Positions 9,894 to 33,475 of a DNA stretch of 45,338 nucleotides are shown here, piece after piece. Made by a program: the position numbers and the translations under genes. Origin of the DNA: Oehlia diaphana. Lineage: Eukaryota; Glomeromycota; Glomeromycetes; Glomerales; Glomeraceae. How positions within the stretch are numbered: position 1 is the stretch's first letter; each line of letters begins with the position of its first letter. The stretch is taken from assembly GCA_003833135.1 (NCBI GenBank), contig QZLH01000690.1, positions 2,453 through 47,790 on the forward strand, written 5' to 3'. Below the pieces are notes generated by a model. That model saw only the letters and a program-made list of their open reading frames with translations. It was not told the DNA's origin and ran no database searches.

Positions 9894-11405
9894 TTAATGC
9901 ATATGAGTACTACCTCGTTCAGTAAAATCTATTAGGAATTCTATATGAATAAAGATAATTTTATATTAATAAGCATTTTAAGAATTATATTTGCAAAAAT
10001 AAGCTTAAAATATGAATTACCGGAAGATTCACTATTAATAATGTCTAAAAGTCTACTTGTGTAAATTGCTTGAGAATTTGTAGTATTTGAAAGAGTAGTG
10101 CCAGAATTTAATAATGAAGAAGATAGCTTTTCATTATTTCTATCTGCATCTTCAATTTGCTTGTTGATTTCATATTCACCAGAGCTACCATAAAAATCTT
10201 CCAATAAATCATTTAATTCTTTTGCTTTAAGTCGTTTTGAAGGATCTGTATCCCAACATCGTTCAATAATATTTAAAATTAGTTGGGGAATTTTATAATT
10301 AGATTTTGGCCTCTGGCCACCGCAAATTAAGGTAGCCAAGTGTATATCATAATCAGAATCATGATAAGGAGGACACCCTGTACAGACTTCATATGCAATA
10401 ATTCCAAATGAATAAATATCACTTTCTTGAGTATATTTTTTTCCTTTTAAAACTTCAGGTGCTACATAAGGTAATACACCATATATTTCTTCTTTAGAAG
10501 GACTTACATTTGCTGGTCGACACAATCCTAAATCAGTAATAAAAGTAATAAGATTATGACCAATTAATATATTACCACAATGAAAATCACGATGAATTAA
10601 TCCCTTTTCATGAATATTTTGAAGTCCATATGCAATCCTTCCCAAAATATCTAACTTATCTTTCCATTTCATTGAATTAAAATTATTATTTAAATGTTGT
10701 CTTAAACTGCCATTGTCTGCATATCTCATTACCATCATAAAATCACCAGATTTTGGATCTTTAGTAATTCCATAACAGCGATTTACATAAAATGAACCAG
10801 TCAGTATATGTGATTCAATCTAAAAAGAATTTCATAAAAGTTAGTTTAACATTTATAATTTCAATATTTTTATATACTAAGCAACTCACTTCATTTAAAA
10901 ATTCGGCTGTAATATTTTTGGAGTCATTTAAACATTTTAAAGCAACGTTTATCTTACTTCTGTACCATTTATTATTTTCAGAATCCCAACTTCTTATATA
11001 ACCATCTTTCCAAAATGCTTTATATATAGTTGAAAATCCACCTTTTCCCAAATATTTAATATTTTTAAATCTGTCATATTCAATCCACTCTAAAAATTCT
11101 AAATTATTATTGGCTTTAAGTTGAGTTCTTTGAATAAACTTATCAACTTTATCATTTCCACTAGCCCAATTTATGAAATTTTGTTGAAAATGGTTGGAAT
11201 TACATGGTTGACACCAAGTATCACTAGTATTATCAGTATTAGGTTGTTTACATTCTTTGCACAAACCATTCCTTCTATAACGTTCTTTTAATTCTTCATT
11301 TAATATTAGCCTATCAATTAATAAACTTTGTTCATGTGTTAAATTCCGATAGTTAAAATCTTTTATTTGTTCAAGTACATCGCTACTAAGTATAAATTCT
11401 TCCAT
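9894..11405 (-). CDS. Tyrosine-kinase-like protein kinase with N-terminal CxxC...CxxC segment, three exons, intact
   Basis: Minus strand, exons 11405-10890, 10819-10021 and 9928-9894; introns of 70 and 92 nt with donors GTGAGT and GTAATT and acceptors TTTTTAG and CTAATAG. The join is in frame and gives 449 residues. N-terminus: CKECKQPN and WCQPCNSNHF form a possible zinc ribbon, then WIEYDRFKNIKYL. Kinase landmarks: glycine loop GKGGFSTIYKAF, ALK lysine segment, catalytic HRDFHCGN, metal-binding DLG (TDLGL), APE (VAPEVLKGKKYTQESDIYSF) and the distal arginine region WDTDPSKR. All catalytic residues look present, so it should phosphorylate Ser/Thr or Tyr, probably in cytosolic signalling. The third exon is inferred from splice signals and is less sure. 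The first intron sits after an Asn-Glu pair, the same place as in the pseudokinases at 22-26 kb, which ties the two families together. Such kinases are a large expanded family in Rhizophagus. Confidence 0.88.
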
Positions 11406-12018
11406 ATTTGGATAATAAAAGTGAAGAGTAAAAAGGATTTTTTTTTTTTTTTAAAAAAAAAGCAGTATTATAAAACGTATTGCAGTCGCACAACAGCGAT
11501 CGACAAATCTTTTTTTTTTAATTGAGGCGAATGAGGCGTTCAAAAAATCAGCTGATGATCACAAGAATTTCGGTAAGAATTTCTTTTTATATAAAAATAC
11601 TTCGTAAGACAAAATTACTTTACTATCATTATGTACTGTATTATTGTAACTGTAATTAATATATTTTATAAAAAAAAATCCTAATGTGATTTAATCTTTA
11701 TGACCAATTCAATATCTGATATGTTTCAAGATTCAATAAATCTATATAACTAAAAAATTCAATGTCATGTTTAGATTACCCGGTTACTAATATTTATTCT
11801 TTTTTTCTAAATAGTTTTTTGATTTTAGTTTATTCCTTTATTTATTTTAATTAATATATTAAAAAATACCATTAAATTCTAAGAATTTTATTTTTTTAGT
11901 ATTTATTTTTTATTTTATTTTATTTTATTTTGTAAATTTTTTTTTTTGATGATAATTTTTTTTCGACCATATTGTATGTCCCTGATAATTTTTTTTTTTT
12001 TTTTGATCATATTGTATC
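11406..12018. other. 5' flank of the kinase gene, no gene seen
   Basis: Contains the divergent upstream side of the kinase start. Poly-T and poly-A tracts abound near 11440-11520 and 11940-12000. The 8-base flank ATTGTATC of the next mobile element is at 12011-12018. Confidence 0.4.
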
Positions 12019-18221: not shown

Positions 18222-21200
18222 ATGGCTCAAGATAACGATAAAGGTAAATGCACATAGCATGAATATAGAAATTTAATACAAATTGAAATTATTCTAAACA
18301 AATTTGCAATATAATAAAACTAGTTTCAAAAATTAACGAAAAAAAAAGTAAGAAAATAATTAACAGTTTGTAAATTAAAATCATAATTTAAATTTAAATT
18401 AACCATTTCCAAAAATTTATTTTATTATTAATATTATTACAGTTGGTAAGTTAATAGCTATTTATTATTGTATTTTATATGATATTTCAAATAATTAAAT
18501 TTTCAATTAATATAATTATTAATATTATAGAACGTAAGTATTTAATTTTATATTAATTTAAAAACATATGTAATTTAAACTAATAATATTATTTGTTATT
18601 TATTTAAAAATTAGTTTGTAAGTTACTGCATTTTTTTTTATATACGATTATAGTATTTTATTAATTGATTGTAATTACTTTACTTTAAAATTATTGTTAA
18701 TTAATAATGCTACAGGGTGTAAGTTGTTTATTTAATTCTATTATATATATTTATATTTACATATAATTTAAACTAACTGAATATTTTATTTAAAATTATT
18801 CATTCAATAATATAGGGAGTAAGTTATTTATTTAATTCTATTATATTTATATAATATTTACATATAATTTAAACTAACTAAATTCTTTATTAAAAAATTA
18901 TTCAAATATTTTAGAACGTAAGTAATTTTATTATATTTATATAATATTTACATGTAATTTAAACTAACTATATTCTTTATTTAAAAATTATTCATTCAAT
19001 AATATAGGGAGTAAGTTATTTATTTAATTCTATTATATTTATATAATATTTAAATATAGTAATTTAAACTAACTAAATTCTTTATTTTAAAATATTATTC
19101 AAATATTTTAGATCGTAAGTAATTCTATTATATATATATAATATTTACATATAATTTAAACTAACTAAATTCTTTATTTAAAAAATTATTCATTCAATAA
19201 TATAGGGGGCAAGTTATTTATTTAATTCTATTATATTTATATATTATTTACATATAATTTAAACTAACTAAATTCTTTATTTGAAAAATTATTCAGAATG
19301 TAAGTAATTCAATTATATTTATATAATATTTACATATAATTTAAACTAACTAAATTCTTTATTTAAAAAATTATTCATTCAATAATTTAGGGGGTAAGTT
19401 ATTTATTTAATTCTATTATTATTTATATAATATTTACATATAGTAATTTAAACTAACTAAATTCTTTATTTTAAAAAATTATTCAAATATTTTAGATCGT
19501 AAGTAATTCTATTATATTTATATAATATTTACATATAATTTAAACTAACTAAATTCTTTATTTAAAAAATTATTCATTCAATAATATAGAGAGTAAGTTA
19601 TTTATTTAATTTTATTATATTTTTATAATATTACATATAATTTAAACTAACTAAATTCTTTATTTAAAAATTATTCATTCGATAATATAGATAGTAAGTT
19701 ATTTATTTAATTCTATCATATTTATATAAGATTTACTTTAATTAAAAAATTATTCATTTTATAATATAGGGGGTAAGTTATTTATTTAATTATATTATAT
19801 TTATATAAATATTTACCATATAATTTAAACTAAATAAATACTTTATTTAAAAAATAATCAAATATTTTCTTTAGCTGGTAAGTTATAAGTTATCTATTTA
19901 ATTCTATTATATTCATATATTACACCTAATTTAAACTAACTAAATTCTTTATTTAAAAAATTATTCAAATATTTTTTTTAGTTGGTAAGTTACAAGTTAT
20001 TTATATAATTCAATTATATTTATATAATATTTACATATAATTTAAACTAACTATAATTCTTTATTTAAAAAATTATTCATTTAATAATATAGAGAGTAAG
20101 TTATTTATTTAATTATATTTATATAAGATTTACATATAATTTAAACTAAATAAATACTTTATTTAAAAAATTATTCATTCAATAATATAGGGGGTAAGTT
20201 ATTTATTTAATTCTATTATATTTATATAATATTTACATATAATTTAAACTAACTAAATTCTTCTTTGTTTAAAAAATTATTCATTCAATAATATAGGGAG
20301 TAAGTTATTTATTTAATTCTATTATATTTATATAATAATAACATATAATTTAAACTAACTAAATTCTTTATTTAAAAAATTATTCTAATATTTTAGATGG
20401 TAAGTAATTTAATTATATTTATATAATACTTACATATAATTTAAACTAACTAAATTTTGGGGTGACGTAAACTTTAATTCTAATAATTCTATCAATTCTA
20501 ATAATTCTTTATTTAAAAAATTATTCATTCAATAATATAGGGAGTAAGTTATTTATTTAATTCTATTATATTTATATAATATTTACATATAATTTAAACT
20601 AACTAAATTCTTTATTTAAAAAATTATTTATTCTATAATATAGAGGGTAAGTTATTTATTTGATTCTATTATATTTATATAATATTTACCATATAATTTA
20701 AACTAACTAAATTCTTTATTTAAAAAAAATTATTCATTCAATAACATAGGGAGTAAGTTACTTATTTAATTCTAATATATTTATATAATATTTACATATA
20801 ATTTAAACTATATAAATTCTTTATTTAAAAAATTATTCATTCAATAATATAGGGAGTAAGTTATTTATTTAATTATATTATATTTGTATGATATTTACAT
20901 ATGATTTAAACTAACTAAATTCTTTATTTAAAAAATTATTCATTCAATAATATAGGATGTAAGTTATTTATTTAATTTTATTATATTTATATAATATTTA
21001 CAAATAATTTAAACTAACTAAATTCTTTATTTAAAAAATTATTTTAATATTTTAGATGGTAAGTAATTCTATTATATTTATATAATACTTACATATAATT
21101 TAAACTAACTAAATACTTTATTTAAAAAATTATTCATTCAATAATATAGGGAGTAAGTTATTTATTTAATTCTATTATATTTATATAATATTTACATATA

Positions 21201-22887
21201 ATTTAAACTAACTAAATTCTTTATTTAAAAAATCACTCATTCAATAATATAGGATGTAAGTTATTTATTTAATTCTATTATATTTATATAATATTTACAT
21301 ATAATTTAATCTAACTAAATTCTTTATTTAAAAAATTATTCTAATATTTTAGATGGTAAGTAATTCTATTATATTTATATAATAATTACATTTAATTTAA
21401 ACTAACTAAAATCTTTATTTAAAAAATTATTCATTCAATAATATAGGGAGTAAGTTATTTATTTAATTCTATTATATTTATATAATAATTACATATAATT
21501 TAAACTAACTAAATTCTTTATTTAAAAAATAATTCAAATATTTTAGATTGTAAGTATTCTATTATATTTATATAATATTTACCATATAATTTAAACTAAC
21601 TAAATTCTTTATTTAAAAAATTATTCAAATATTTTTTTAGTTGGTAGATTACAAGTTATTTATTTAATTCTATTATATTTATATATAATTTAAACTAACA
21701 AATTCTTTATCTAATAAATTATTCAAATATTTTAGATTGTAAGTAATTCTATTATATTTATATAATATTTACATATAATTTAAACTAACTATAATTCTTT
21801 ATTTAAAAAATTATTCATTCAATAATATAGGGAGTAAGTTATTTATTTAATTATATTATATTTGTATGATATTTACATATGATTTAAACTAACTAAATTC
21901 TTTATTTAAAAATTATTCAAATATTTTAGATGGTAAGTAATTCTATTATATTTATATAGTATTTATATATAATTTAAACTAACTAAAATCTTTATTTAAA
22001 AATATTTTCTTCAGTTGGTAAGTTATAAGTTATTGATTTAATTCTATTATACTTATATACTATTCATATAAAATTATTTATTATATTAAATTTTACAATT
22101 TTATTTAGGGTAAATATGATTAATAATATTTAATATTAAATTTTTAATGAATTTTATTTAAATTTAATATAATTTCATTTTTATTTTTAAAGATCTGATA
22201 CTAGTGGAACTAAAATTATGGATCAGTTTATTTCTAAAAATAAATTAAAATGGATTCCTTATAATGAATTTAAGAATATTGAATATTTTGGTAAAGGAGG
22301 GTATGGGACTATTTATAAAGCTGAATGTCTTATTTATAAAGTAATTCTTAAATCTTTCAATTATCTTAATAATTCAGATGAAAGTTTAAATAAATTTTTA
22401 AATGAAGTATGGTTAAATATTATTTTTTTTTTATAATATAATAATTTACTTTTACTAATTTAATAAATATTATTTTTATAGTGGAAAATTATTAAGTCAG
22501 ATGAAATTATTAAGATATTTGGATTAACAAAAAATCCAGATGCTTCAAATTATATGTTAGTAATGGAATATACAAATAAGGGTAATATAAGAAGATGTTT
22601 AGCAGAAATAACAAAAAATTGGAAACAGAGATTACTAAATTTATATCAAGTTATTGTTGGCCTCAATAATATTCATGAAAAAGGTCTTATTCATTATAAC
22701 TTTCATGATGGTAATATTTTATGTAACAAATATGATGAAGATATATATGGAATTTTTATTAGTGATTATTTAGGATTATATCAGCTTGCAAAATCTTTTT
22801 TAAAAGAAAATAATATTTATGGTATTATACCATTTATGGCACCTGAAATTTTAAAAGGTCAACCTTATACTCAGGCTAGTGATATAT
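18222..22887 (+). CDS. Pseudokinase/coiled-coil gene, copy 3, with a 5' array of 37 candidate 3-nt exons and a 1-nt exon; 3' end lost at N 22888
   Basis: Proposed exon 1 is 18222-18243 (MAQDNDK plus one base, donor GTAAAT). It is followed by 37 three-base exons, a 1-base exon G at 22109, exon 22193-22406 and exon 22482-22887 onward. Exon 1 ends in phase 1, the microexons keep phase, the single G moves it to phase 2, and the 22193 exon needs phase 2 (one base before SDTSGTKIMDQF), so the whole chain is open. Kinase landmarks: glycine loop FGKGGYGTIYKA, lysine VILKSF, catalytic-loop equivalent HYNFHDGN (HRD changed to HYN), SDYLGLYQ for DFG, and APE in MAPEILKGQ. The missing Arg and Asp of HRD suggest a pseudokinase. 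The intron 22407-22481 is at the same site as in the active kinase at 11 kb. Splicing of the array is inferred, not shown. Exon 1 itself is chosen by phase and donor only. Confidence 0.6.
20457..20506 (+). repeat. Copy of the Asn/Ser-repeat gene start inserted in one array intron
   Basis: The 50 bases contain TTGGGGTGACGTAAACTTTA and then AATTCTAATAATTCTATC repeats. They match the minus strand of about 14092-14040, the coding start of the gene at 14099, with one change (GAC GAA to GAC GTA). The insert lies between the branch site CTAACTAAATT and the CTTTATTTAAAA tail of a type A unit, with AAATT microhomology at the edge. It lengthens that intron to 141 nt and leaves donor, branch site and acceptor intact. 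Confidence 0.85.
22109..22109 (+). other. Candidate single-nucleotide exon (G)
   Basis: TTTTATTTAG, then G, then GTAAATATG. With AG as acceptor and GTAAAT as donor only one base remains. The same arrangement is at 23178 (TTTTATTTAG, G, GTAAGTATG) in the next gene. Reading through from this acceptor instead hits stops in all three frames within about 25 bases. One base here is exactly what is needed to bring the upstream phase into line with the next exon. Confidence 0.55.
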
Positions 22888-22888
22888 N
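22888..22888. other. Isolated N joining two copies: likely mis-join or collapsed gap
   Basis: To the left, copy 3 stops inside the kinase C-lobe at GGCTAGTGATATAT. To the right the sequence is abruptly array intron (AATAATATAG). The rest of copy 3 and the first exons of copy 2 are missing. One N cannot represent the lost kilobases. Confidence 0.9.
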
Positions 22889-23178
22889 AATAATATAGGG
22901 AGTAAGTTATTTGTTTAGTTCTATTATATTTATATAATATTTACATATAATTTAAACTAACTAAATTCTTTATTTAAAAAATTATTCAAATATTTTAGAT
23001 TGTAAGTAATTCTATTATATTTATATAATATTTACATATAATTTAAACTAACTAAATTCTTTATTTAAAAATTATTCATTCAATAATGTAGGGAGTAAGT
23101 TATTTATTTAATCCTATTATATTTTTTATATAAAATTTAAATTAATTAATTATATTAAATTTTACAATTTTATTTAGG
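22889..23178 (+). repeat. End of a second microexon array, in front of copy 2
   Basis: Candidate 3-nt exons GGA at 22899, ATT at 22999 and GGA at 23092, then the 1-nt exon G at 23178, with the same donor, branch and acceptor motifs as the first array. The 5' side is lost at the N. The last units match those of copy 3 in order, so the array existed before the two genes separated. Confidence 0.8.
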
Positions 23179-26075
23179 GTAAGTATGATTAATATTAAAT
23201 TTTTAATAAATTTTATTTTAAATTTTAATATAATTTCATTTTATTTTTAAAGATATGATGATACTAGTGAAAGTGAAATTATGGATCTATTTATTTCTAA
23301 AAATGAATTAAAATGGATTCCTTATAATGAATTTAAAAATATTGAAGATTTTGGTAAAGGAGGATTTGGGACTATCTATAAAGCTAAATATTCTATTTAT
23401 GATGTAATTCTTAAATCTTTCAATTATCTTAATAATTCAGATGAAAGTTTAAAAAAATTTTTAAATGAAGTATGATTTATTAATATTTTTTTTCAATATA
23501 ATAATTTATTTATACTAATTTACTGTATATTATTTTTATAGTGGAAAATTATTAATTCAATTGGAATTATTAAAATATATGGATTTACAATCCAGATACT
23601 TCAAATTATATATTAATAATGAAATATGCAAATAAGGGTAATATAAGAGGATGCTTAGCAGAAATAACAAAAAATTGGGAAAAAAGATTATTTAATTTGT
23701 ATCAAGTTATTGTTGGCCTTAATGATATTCATAAAAAAGGTCTTATTCATTATAACTTTCATGATGGTAATATTTTATGTAACAAATATAAAGAAGATAC
23801 ATATGGAATTTTTATTAGTGATTATCTAGAATTATATCAGCTTGCAAAATCTTTTTTAAAAGAAAATAATATTTATGGTATTATACCATTTATGGCACCT
23901 GAAATTTTAAAAGGTCAACCTTATACTCAGGCTAGTGATATATATAGTTTTTCTATGATTATGTGGGAATTTTCATCTGGAATTCCACCATTTAGTGATA
24001 AAGCACATGATTTTCAACTTGCTTTAGGTATTTGTAAAGGTGAACGTCCTGAAATTATTGAAAATACTCCACAATGTTATGTAGATTTAATGAAAAAATG
24101 TTGGGATGAAGATCCATCAAAAAGGCCATCCTCTAAAGAAGTTTTCAATATTATTAAAAATTGGATTTTTCTTCCTCAGAATAAGATAATTAAAGAAATT
24201 AATGAAGAATTAAAAAGTAATATTATGGAATTTATAAATGCACCAATTGAGCATAATAATCTTGTTGTAAAACCTCATCCAAAAGCATATTATACAAGTC
24301 ATTTACTTGATTTTACTAGTAAAGAATTAAATGAAATTCTAGAAGTATCTTTAGAACTGAAATTTCCTAAATTAAAACATGATGATACTAAGCAGGAACT
24401 TCTTAAATTTGAAAAGATTGCTGAAACTTATTATCAAAGTTCTCAGTATGAGTTACAAAATATTCAAATGAAATTAATTAATTTACAACAAAGAAATTTT
24501 CAACTTGAGCAAGATGTTCAAAATTTAAGGCTTAGCTTAGCTATACAGCTTAAAGAATCTACAGAAAAAGAAAATTTATTACAAACCCAAATTACTTACC
24601 TGCAAAATGAAAAGCAAACTTTAGCTGACAATTTAACTGAACGGTTGAAACAAATCAGTCAGTTAAATCAAGAAAAAAATAACCTGCAAAATCAATTAAC
24701 TCAATCAGAAGCTAATATAAAAGAATTAGAATTTCAGCAGGATCAAATAGAAGAAGAAAATCTAAAGTTAGAAAATGAGTTATTTGATTTACAACAAAGA
24801 AATTTTAAATTTGAACAAGATAATCAAAATCTGAGGCTTAAATCAGCTGTACAAATTAAGGAATTTGCGGAAAAAGAAAATATTTTGCAAACCCAAATTA
24901 TTACCCTGCAAAATGAAAAGCAAAATTTAGCTGGCAATTTAACTGAACAATTGGAACAAAATAAACTGACTAACCAGCTAGTCCAAATTCAAATCAGCCA
25001 GTTAAAGCAAGAAAAAATTGATTTGCAAGAACAATTAACACAAACAGGAGTCAAGATTCAGGAATTAAAATCTCATAAAGTAAGTTTATTTGAACAAAAA
25101 GAGCAATTAGAAAATAGACAAAAAGGTTTAATTGAAGAAAAGGAACAATTAGAAAATAGACTTAATCAGTCCCAAGTTAATTATGAACAAATAGAACAAG
25201 AAAGAATTAAGCTACAAAATAAGGTAAAAGGTCTCTCACAAGATCAAAAACTCACTGTTAAATTGAAAGCAAAACTAGAAAAAGAAATTGCTCAATTGAA
25301 ACAAAAATTGAATAGTGAAAAACAAATCAAAATGCAATTGACTCAAGCTTTACAGATTAAAGAAAGTAAAATTAATAAATTAGAACAAAGTTTAATTAAT
25401 CTTGATCAAAAGCGTATTAAGCAGTTAAAAGACAAAGAAAAAGAATTGAATAAAGTTAAAGAGGATTTAGTAAATAAATTAACTAGTGGAGAAAATACTA
25501 AAGAAATACATAAAGAAAAAGAATCTAAACAAAAAGAGTTAGTTGACCTCCAGCAAGAATTATCAAGAACATCAACATCTTATAATGCTAATAGAAAAAA
25601 AAAGGTTCTCAATCAAGTTAATAATTTTCTGAAAGCCAAGGAAGATTTCTTAACTTTACAAGAAGAAGCTATTGATTATCTAGAAAGTTCTATTAATAAG
25701 GATAGAAATTCTACTAGTTCTACCAAAGTTATGAAAACTTCTGAATCAATTGACAAGTATATTAAAGAATTTCAAAACATTCTTGTAAAATATAATGATG
25801 AATCATTATGGCTGAACAAAAACCATTACTCCTTAAATAAAATTGTTCAGGAAAATAAAGAGTTGGAAGTTAGCATCATGATTGAAAATATTCTTAAGTT
25901 GAATTCTTTTAATCTTGATAAATATAATATATTTAAATTTGCCACTAATTCTAAGGAAGGAACCACAATTCAATTAAATTCTAATATGATGGCAGAAGAT
26001 ATCAATTCATTAAGAAAGAATTTGGATGAATTAAAATTAGAATTAAAACAAGAAAAAGAAGGATTAAAAATTTAG
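22899..26075 (+). pseudogene. Pseudokinase/coiled-coil gene, copy 2, near complete, with one 4-base deletion
   Basis: After the array end, exon 23253-23469 (begins in phase, YDDTSESEIMDLF; glycine loop FGKGGFGTIYKA) is joined through the intron 23470-23541 to a long exon from 23542. Near 23588-23591 four bases (AAAA) are missing against copy 3, shifting the frame; from 23619 the frame is open to 26075. Motifs: HYNFHDGN in place of HRD, SDYLELYQ in place of DFG, APE intact, WDEDPSKRPS. From about 24400 to 25560 comes a long coiled coil with heptads rich in Q, E, K and L and an internal duplication (LQQRNFQLEQDVQNLRL, later LQQRNFKFEQDNQNLRL). A C-terminal helical domain follows (SRTSTSYNANRKKK to NSLRKNLDELKLEL). 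The end is one A shorter than in copy 1, so it stops early at TAG. Deletion or assembly error cannot be told apart here. Confidence 0.78.
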
Positions 26076-27239: not shown

Positions 27240-28530
27240 GACTTCAGGTTTCTCTAGTTATAAATCAAACTGAAGAAGTCCAAAAAGTTAACATCCAAAG
27301 TCCAAAGCCAATACCTATAAAAAGAAAAATTACATTAAAAAAAATAAAAGAACGAATCAAAAAAAAAAAAAAAAATGAAACTCCAAGCTGTCACCAATAA
27401 AAAGAAATGTTAATTTGTTTCTTAAATTAAAGAAACCTCCTCTTTTTCCTGTTTCTTACCTTAAAAATTTCATGTCCAAACCAGCACCCTAAAAAAAAAT
27501 AATGTAAAGAAATGTTAGTTCATTTCTTAGATTAGAAATAAAAAAAAATTCCCTCTTCCCTACTCTCATTTCTTACCTTGGAGTCCAGTTTCGTGTCCAT
27601 GTAACGTCCTATAAAAAAACGAGGAAAGAAATATTAGTTCATTTCCTAATTTAAATAAAAAAAATTCCCTCTTTCCCATTTCTTATAAAGTCCAGTTTTT
27701 TGTCCAATCTAGCAATCTACAAAAAAAATAATAAAAGAAATGTTAGTTTATTTTAGAGGTTGGAACCGGTTAAGCTTAACCGGTTAATTAACCGGTTAAA
27801 ACGGTTAACCGGTTAAAACATTTGTTAACCGGTTAATAAACAATTTTTAACCGGTTAAATTATCCGGTCAAATTATCCGGTTAAATTAATCGGTTAAATT
27901 AATCGGTTAAATTAACCGGTTAAAATGCTGAAAATATTTGTAATTCTGGCCAAATTTACAGTGCCGGCCAGAATTATAAATCACGGGACTTCGGATAAAA
28001 GTTTAGCCATCAGGTAAGATAGAATTTTTTATGTTATATAATATTCATAATGCGGCCAAAATTCATAGTGCCAGCCAGACAATTTTGACCTGAATTTCGT
28101 CTTTCAGCTAGAGTTTCGTTTCGATTAGTTAGAGTTTTGGTCTTGCCTAATTTTGGCCGGGATTAAAATATATTTGATGCTAATCCTGGCCGAATTTCAG
28201 TATTGAGTTTTAACCGGTTAATTAACCGGTTAAGGTTTGGTTAACCGGTTATTAACCGGTTAAGACTTTTTGGACCGGTTCCAATCTCTAGTTTATTTCT
28301 TAAAAAAAGTAGATCCCCTTTCCTTAAAATCTGGTTCGTTCTAGCTGGCAATTTCTACAAAAAAAAAAATAAACGTTAGTAAAATGTTTCCATAACCTAG
28401 CATAAATAAAAAAACTTCGCCTTCCGAAGCTGAAATAAAAATGAAAATATTAATAATTTTTCATTTATAAAAGATTTTTTTAAAAAAAACCATAAAAAAC
28501 TTACCTATTTACAGATCGAAGCTGAAAAGA
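27240..28530 (-). other. Minus-strand mini-exon locus, relative of 6.4-8.1 kb, interrupted by a hAT-like element
   Basis: Read on the minus strand, exon-like blocks lie between poly-T/YAG acceptors and GTAAG donors: 28521-28505 (17 nt, donor GTAAGT), 27608-27577 (32 nt, donor GTAAGAAATG) and 27488-27460 (29 nt, donor GTAAGAAACAG). Further acceptors are at about 28357, 27719 and 27315. The block at 27314 starts GTATTGGCTTTGGACTTTGG and ATGTTAAC follows, close to the plus-strand block at 7631 (CGGACTTTGGATGTTAGC). Branch-site palindromes (GAAATGAACTAACATTTC type) recur in the introns. As on the plus strand, the block lengths are not multiples of three and no frame could be fixed. Confidence 0.5.
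27754..28290. mobile_element. Non-autonomous hAT-like element, 537 bp, copy 1, with 8-bp duplication GTTTATTT
   Basis: Ends TAGAGGTTGGAACCGGTTAA and, on the right, CCGGTTCCAATCTCTA, nearly complementary. GTTTATTT flanks both sides (27746-27753 and 28291-28298). The subterminal regions are built of many TTAACCGGTTAA palindromes; the middle has GGCCGGGATTAAAATATATT and related words. No ORF. The TAGAG/CTCTA ends with an 8-bp duplication fit the hAT superfamily. Confidence 0.88.
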
Positions 28531-32380: not shown

Positions 32381-33475
32381 TAGAGATTGGAACCGGTCCA
32401 AAAAGTCTTAACCGGTTAATAACCGGTTAACCAAACCTTTAACCGGTTAATTAACCGGTTAAAATTCAATATTGAAATTCGGCCAGGATTAGCATCAAAT
32501 ATATTTTAATCCCGGCCAAAATTAGGCAAGACCAAAACTCTAACTAATCGAAAGAAAGACGAAATTCAGGTCAAAATTGTCTGGCTGGCACTATGAATTT
32601 CGGCCGCATTATGAATATTATATAACATAAAAAATTCTATCTTACCTGNNNNNNNNNNNNNNNNNNNNNNNNNNNNNNNNNNNNNNNNNNNNNNNNNNNN
32701 NNNNNNNNNNNNNNNNNNNNNNNNNNNNNNNNNNNNNNNNNNNNNNNNNNNNNNNNNNNNNNNNNNNNNNNNNNNNNNNNNNNNNNNNNNNNNNNNNNNN
32801 NNNNNNNNNNNNNNNNNNNNNNNNNNNNNNNNNNNNNNNNNNNNNNNNNNNNNNNNNNNNNNNNNNNNNNNNNNNNNNNNNNNNNNNNNNNNNNNNNNNN
32901 NNNNNNNNNNNNNNNNNNNNNNNNNNNNNNNNNNNNNNNNNNNNNNNNNNNNNNNNNNNNNNNNNNNNNNNNNNNNNNNNNNNNNNNNNNNNNNNNNNNN
33001 NNNNNNNNNNNNNNNNNNNNNNNNNNNNNNNNNNNNNNNNNNNNNNNNNNNNNNNNNNNNNNNNNNNNNNNNNNNNNNNNNNNNNNNNNNNNNNNNNNNN
33101 NNNNNNNNNNNNNNNNNNNNNNNNNNNNNNNNNNNNNNNNNNNNNNNNNNNNNNNNNNNNNNNNNNNNNNNNNNNNNNNNNNNNNNNNNNNNNNNNNNNN
33201 NNNNNNNNNNNNNNNNNNNNNNNNNNNNNNNNNNNNNNNNNNNNNNNNNNNNNNNNNNNNNNNNNNNNNNNNNNNNNNNNNNNNNNNNNNNNNNNNNNNN
33301 NNNNNNNNNNNNNNNNNNNNNNNNNNNNNNNNNNNNNNNNNNNNNNNNNNNNNNNNNNNNNNNNNNTAATTTAACCGGTTAAAAATTGTTTTTTAACCGG
33401 TTAACAAATGTTTTAACCGGTTAACCGTTTTAACCGGTTAATTAACCGGTTAAGCTTAACCGGTTCCAACCTCTA
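32381..33475. mobile_element. Non-autonomous hAT-like element, copy 2, inverted relative to copy 1, with 8-bp duplication ATCAAGAC and an internal gap
   Basis: Begins TAGAGATTGGAACCGGTCCA and ends TTAACCGGTTCCAACCTCTA. ATCAAGAC flanks both ends (32373-32380 and 33476-33483). The sequence is the reverse complement of the element at 27754-28290 with few changes. The N run 32649-33366 lies inside it. Confidence 0.9.
32649..33366. other. Assembly gap (718 N)
   Basis: The gap lies inside the hAT-like element. In copy 1 the same two flanks are only 149 bp apart (27862-28010), so the stated gap size is too large or extra DNA is inserted. Confidence 0.99.

Follow-up and report, generated by a model that had tools for sequence, protein, structure and literature searches.

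In a 45,338-nucleotide stretch of contig QZLH01000690.1 of Oehlia diaphana (positions 2,453 to 47,790 of the forward strand; hereafter the window), a kinase gene on the plus strand is preceded by a tandem array, at 18443-22017, of 37 units that each place three bases between a splice-acceptor-like and a splice-donor-like site. We consider it probable that these triplets are spliced serially as 3-nt exons and translated, in the frame predicted for exon 1, into a variable segment at the N-terminus of the kinase. With less assurance, we incline to see here a new gene architecture, in which a satellite unit consists of one intron plus one codon-sized exon and unequal recombination would write a peptide three bases at a time. 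With up to 77 exons per gene and about two thousand in this one fungal genome, spliced serially and closed by a 1-nt exon, it would give each member of a large kinase family a fast-changing and possibly isoform-variable N-terminus. The observations on which we base this proposal are the anatomy of the units, their recurrence in the genome, the excess of three-base spacings, the avoidance of stops and the logic of the reading frame.

An initial annotation of the window had reported 37 units with exactly three bases between a YAG acceptor and the donor, 35 of them with GTAAGT, and a recount gave the same figures; the two other donors are GCAAGT (unit at 19206) and GTAGAT (unit at 21641). The units mostly measure 80-110 bp each. 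The window contains 38 exact copies of the pattern YAG-NNN-GTAAGT, of which 35 lie in the main array and three in the stub of a second array; 0.34 would be expected, and 100 shuffles gave at most two. A chance origin of these sites was therefore rejected. The same annotation had placed a CTAAC branch site upstream of nearly all units, which was overstated: the exact motif is present within 60 nt upstream of 28 of the 37.

In our model, the gene starts with a predicted exon 1 of 22 nt (18222-18243, ATGGCTCAAGATAACGATAAAG), which encodes MAQDNDK plus one base and has GTAAAT as donor; near-identical 22-nt starts precede nine further arrays. It is followed by a predicted exon 2 of 24 nt (18324-18347, VSKINEKK), located between CTAG and GTAAGA and running from phase 1 to phase 1, of which 24-nt versions are found at five other loci. 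The 37 predicted 3-nt exons have their first bases at 18443, 18531, 18615, 18716, 18816, 18915, 19008, 19112, 19206, 19297, 19391, 19496, 19590, 19691, 19770, 19875, 19982, 20093, 20191, 20297, 20397, 20541, 20644, 20750, 20853, 20956, 21056, 21150, 21253, 21353, 21447, 21547, 21641, 21736, 21831, 21930 and 22015. Then come a predicted 1-nt exon (G, at 22109) between TTTAG and GTAAAT, without which the kinase is out of frame, the first kinase exon of 214 nt (22193-22406), read from phase 2, and the second kinase exon (22482-22887; Pfam Pkinase, E 1.8e-14), cut by an N at 22888. Exon 2, as well as the second-array stub at 22899-23094, had previously been overlooked. The initial annotation expected a product about 112 nt longer than exon 1 plus the kinase exon; this figure equals the 37 triplets plus the predicted 1-nt exon at 22109, and it becomes 136 nt once exon 2 is counted.

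The array is one of many, a point that the description of a run of minimal exons in this single gene had not included. In the genome (108.8 Mb, 1,672 contigs), TAG-N(k)-GTAAGT is found 2,618 times for k = 3, against 623 times for k = 2, 515 times for k = 4 and 509 times for k = 6, that is, an excess of about 2,000 sites for the three-base spacing. The possibility that the motif encloses exons of any short length is not supported by these counts, the other spacings being far below k = 3. Matches to one repeat unit were found on at least 34 contigs, including that of the window, so that an artefact of a single contig was rejected; N stretches cut several of the loci. We fetched 20 regions around such matches, then five more as a test set (labelled L0xx); several loci are cut by N or by contig ends. 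Together with the window, these 26 loci contain 702 units, with up to 77 units per locus. The genes thus have, in sequence, the form of a micro-exon architecture, with mostly very short predicted internal 5' exons whose lengths are multiples of three. Most arrays lead into kinase genes, and 15 loci, window included, could be modelled into the kinase exon; the L022 array runs into a different coding stretch. The kinase domain (Pkinase or PK_Tyr_Ser-Thr) downstream of the array was identified by Pfam matches for both window genes and by kinase frames in the modelled relatives. A search of the genome with one family member returned 119 exon-level matches, not all of which need be accompanied by arrays. 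A profile of the unit matched 515 times in the first set, whose introns mostly measure about 75-120 nt; among the 102 without the strict pattern, 97 keep AG-NNN-GT, chiefly with a GTATGT donor, and five do not, one of these being cut by a contig end. This profile was trained on the same loci and its hits are no independent test, whereas the genome counts are independent.

The reading frame provides the second line of evidence. Exon 2 candidates were found in eight of the 21 loci, six of them measuring 24 nt and the two others 96 and 51 nt, and also in two test loci, and the length of every candidate is a multiple of three. Since exon 1 measures 22 nt and exon 2 is a multiple of three, the array would be entered in phase 1, in which each codon straddles a junction, taking one base from the end of a triplet and two from the start of the next. 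In this phase, the 21 arrays of at least three units contain a single stop among 535 junctions, in the L038 array (four of 560 units, in groups of fewer than three, were omitted from this count); 2,000 within-array shuffles of the triplets gave a mean of 17.3 phase-1 stops and a minimum of seven. Stops are not depleted in phase 2 (89 vs 73.9 after shuffling). Triplets ending in T are followed by AA, AG or GA in only 1 of 119 cases, as compared with 87 of 417 for the other endings (Fisher p 1.7e-9; the pairwise triplet comparison of this analysis covered 12 loci), and are commonly followed by AT (35) or GG (29). The control endings A (31/156) and C (20/133) show no bias. The five test arrays contain no phase-1 stop among 137 junctions, whereas shuffling gave a mean of 5.8 and at least one stop in every one of 2,000 runs (Fisher p 2.8e-4). 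Because stops are almost absent in the frame predicted for exon 1, the triplets are likely read as protein.

Both ends of the arrays are similar from locus to locus. At the 5' end, 16 of 26 arrays start with CTC or CCC, and the next triplet is TT- or TC- in 15 of these 16; when read in phase 1, such starts are silent variants of Ala-Leu. Of the 16 arrays starting with CTC or CCC, 14 then have a T|GG codon, encoding Trp, among their first six triplets. At the 3' end, CCT or CTT followed by TTG was found in 14 of the 20 arrays whose 3' end is available. The array is then followed by TAG-[A/G]-GTAAGT, or a near variant, in all 15 modelled genes. The same 1-nt exon site is present in the second gene of the window, in four of the five test loci, and in L048 and L049; at the test locus L044 the pattern was unmatched. 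If read as a 1-nt exon, this single base between an acceptor and a donor is required by the frame, because it shifts phase 1 to phase 2, as the kinase exon needs. In all 10 genes that have an exon 1, the joined exons read on into the kinase exon, and dropping the 1-nt exon leads in every case to a stop inside the first kinase exon. In each of these 10 genes, the kinase would be out of frame if the 1-nt exon were skipped, either alone or together with the array, and both possibilities were rejected. A start within the kinase exon is a poor general solution, since only six of the 15 genes have an ATG there.

Skipping only the triplets keeps the frame. This property is compatible with a satellite lying within one large intron, which would be removed whole, the triplets being skipped or retained as rare noise: exon 1 or exon 2, the 1-nt exon and the kinase exon also join in frame, triplets adding only threes, and the units are alike while the array lengths vary. 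We nevertheless regard this explanation as unlikely, because stop avoidance in a single frame would not be expected of triplets that are skipped. The triplets are also richer in GC (about 0.39) than the array around them (about 0.12). The comparative evidence speaks for serial coding exons rather than an inert satellite, owing to the genome-wide three-base excess, the stop avoidance, the similar array ends and the recurrent 1-nt exon needed by the frame. The interpretation given in the initial annotation is supported in part, exon 2 having been missed and the array being one of many. Its two options, serial exons or a satellite kept as serial introns, are compatible, a unit looking like one intron plus one 3-nt exon.

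We also compared the triplets with the introns that separate them. In the 16 of 21 loci with at least eight usable units each, mean diversity ranges from 0.59 to 0.71 in triplet columns and from 0.14 to 0.37 in intron columns, a gap that is explained in part by the AT-only make-up of the introns. Among 28 pairs of units with flanks at most 4% different, only 11 have identical triplets; this comparison covered 15 loci, with pairs in six of them, and few independent events underlie the pairs. All three triplet positions vary, and even the presumed wobble position is more variable than the intron. Selection on the amino acids may thus be insufficient on its own to explain the triplet diversity, and it is possible that mutation or conversion acts in a way that leaves the introns untouched or renews them. 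TAN triplets are absent among the 43 kinds of the first set, though TAT and TAC are not stops.

A role at the DNA level, or no role at all, the satellite having been copied with its motif and having no coding meaning, would agree with the tandem structure and with the spread over at least 33 other contigs. It is, in our estimation, the least probable explanation, as it does not fit with stop avoidance that is specific to one frame, with the arrays preceding kinase exons in the 15 modelled genes, or with the constancy of the flanking splice sites beside variable triplets, although the units were chosen by those sites.

Deposited protein models were also compared with the arrays. With 99% identity over 82% of its length, the protein predicted from L035 matches P0001, a deposited Rhizophagus diaphanus protein, which makes R. 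diaphanus or a very near relative the likely source of the genome. Between exon 2 and the kinase, P0001 has the segment DEWWNRMVEF. Ten of the 31 triplets of L035 spell this segment in order and in phase 1. The same search succeeded with 4 of 2,000 shuffled arrays, with none of 2,000 shuffled peptides and with none of the 25 other loci. Exons of 3 nt have thus already been introduced at this locus by an annotation pipeline, with many of them left out and the 1-nt exon unused. The R. irregularis proteins P0083 and P0086 also look triplet-encoded in phase 1 by eye, and none of the arrays fetched from this genome spells them.

Several observations weigh against serial coding exons read in phase 1. 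The exact CTAAC is present in 332 of 558 units across the loci. Triplets ending in G are followed by AA, AG or GA in 36 of 128 cases, which is an enrichment (p 1e-4), and an AGA-versus-GGA control was not significant (1/21 vs 12/71, p 0.28). The arrays share ancestry, so that the counts are not fully independent. L028 and L033 carry a stop in the kinase exon even when it is read in the correct frame. A search with the N-terminus predicted for L025 gave 16 proteins, and the N-termini examined are without a triplet-encoded segment. Finally, stop triplets are likewise rare in phase 0 (1/556 in the first set and 0/142 in the test set), so that stops alone cannot exclude this phase, and the deposited R. 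diaphanus protein P0061 reads the triplets in phase 0 with a 5-nt exon.

The last two points raise the possibility that the triplets are exons read in phase 0, a 5-nt exon (AGTAA) replacing the 1-nt exon. The 3' end of P0061 fits this reading, with one residue coming from an undetected unit and one triplet unused, and P0029, P0037 and P0060 look alike by eye; no fetched array spells any of these four proteins fully in phase 0. We hold this reading to be highly improbable. Exons 1 and 2 end in phase 1, and the phase-1 stop avoidance would be left without explanation. In addition, the GTAAAT that follows the 1-nt exon in the first gene of the window offers no GT donor for a 5-nt exon. Base composition points in the same direction: at the three codon positions, the triplets have a GC content of 0.48/0.37/0.33 when read in phase 1 and of 0.37/0.33/0.48 when read in phase 0, that of the kinase exons being 0.31/0.22/0.10. 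GC content thus falls from the first to the third position in the kinase exons as it does in the triplets in phase 1, whereas phase 0 would make the third position the richest (0.48 vs 0.10). Exon phases and GC composition both speak against phase 0.

For serial splicing in phase 1, we propose the following course of events. An acceptor and a donor three bases apart could hardly both be bound at once, so that splicing would proceed sequentially, beginning at the 5' end. When exon 2 is joined to the first triplet, the next GTAAGT would lie three bases past the junction, as a donor that is ready for use, and each step would resemble recursive splicing that leaves three bases behind. At the end, a change of phase at the 1-nt exon (22109) would bring the kinase exon in frame. 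A unit would add three bases, so its gain, loss or skipping would keep the frame, and with units that are neutral for the frame the array could grow like a satellite. The splicing and its order, the number of triplets kept per mRNA, their translation and the role of the segment are what we infer from these features.

Another use of the same sites would be as recursive-splicing steps that aid the removal of the array, the triplets mostly not being kept in the mRNA. As in the recursive sites of a review (PMC13149111), acceptor and donor are nearly back to back, and stepwise removal is inferred. In that text, AG and GT are directly joined, mostly in long introns, whereas here three frame-constrained bases separate them in each of the 37 units, the exon is not of zero length and the introns are short. 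We consider this use very unlikely.

The window contains a second gene of the same type. Its array is reduced to the stub at 22899-23094 (+), with three 3-nt units (GGA, ATT, GGA), the 5' part missing at the N. It is followed by a predicted 1-nt exon (G, at 23178), a first kinase exon from 23253 and a long frame with a kinase domain and a coiled-coil-like part at 23574-26075 (the gene model covers 23253-26075; Pfam PF07714, E 1.8e-23). The single N at 22888 joins the truncated first kinase gene to this stub, and an assembly gap at that position likely hides the remainder of the first kinase gene and of the second array. Active kinases carry an HRD motif. At the HRD position, both window kinases (22482-22887 and 23574-26075) read HYN, as do L025, L027 and L029, which suggests that they are pseudokinases; in relatives that lack the coiled-coil-like tail, this position is mostly HCD. 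A further kinase gene is located on the minus strand at 9941-11450 (Pfam PF07714, E 2.8e-39 for 9941-10816). On the plus strand, a frame at 195-1829 resembles by eye the coiled-coil tail of the second array gene. Short tandem repeats on the palindrome TTAACCGGTTAA are found at 27764-27924, 28212-28280 and 33370-33465.

An unrelated gene with serial tiny predicted exons was noticed by eye in L041 (G000:C19:111000-117000), on the minus strand at about 3073-1946. A signal-peptide-like exon is followed by exons of 6, 3, 6, 3, 12, 3, 3, 6 and 3 nt, all multiples of three and in phase 1, and the joined exons read, by eye, ...HPDGCCWCVGFITCLAICC. The R. irregularis protein P0137 matches the N-terminus of this gene, then appears to read through the first intron. 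Serial micro-exons may thus extend beyond kinases.

A 3-nt exon offers scant room for joint recognition of acceptor and donor, and dozens of them in series would be a stress test for exon definition and for a forced order of splicing. If the proposed reading is true, the N-termini of a large kinase family of mycorrhizal fungi are mis-annotated in public databases, and the expansion of a repeat can write coding sequence without frameshifts.

In the literature searched, outside of which most subscription journals lie, we found no report of serial codon-sized exons. Like introners and introns gained by tandem duplication, the introns described here are many and similar, or made by duplication; unlike introners, they lie in tandem, at a fixed 3-nt spacing and in the one gene family examined here (PMC4974935, PMC8469720). 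For the SP7 effectors of Rhizophagus, the text describes repeats in the protein and not micro-exons (PMC11333574). Exons of 1 nt have been verified by RNA in the plant genes APC11 and VPS55 (PMC4674806, PMC8831610) and in CYP621A of Fusarium (PMC12940212). As in those isolated cases, a single base restores the reading frame; the difference is that the 1-nt exon is here a predicted one and stands, in many paralogues, at the end of a series of 3-nt exons. In 2015, a length of 3 nt was cited as the lower limit for alternatively spliced exons (PMC4674806), and such micro-exons have the same length as ours, occurring as single cases there and in a tandem series here.

The nearest comparison is with the micro-exon genes (MEGs) of Schistosoma mansoni, which encode secreted proteins and contain 10-20 short exons, mostly of 15 bp (6-81 in the text and 3-81 in the abstract), while their introns reach about 5 kb and their proteins have been verified (PMC10526429). 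Both systems have many tiny exons in series, separated by introns and mostly multiples of three, both give variable products within a family and both are hard to annotate. The arrays differ by up to 77 predicted exons of exactly 3 nt, near-identical short introns and a kinase downstream. They do not belong to the Schistosoma family itself: the gene is a fungal kinase gene, and its MAQDNDK exon 1 has, by eye, no hydrophobic leader. The array would represent an extreme new form of micro-exon gene.

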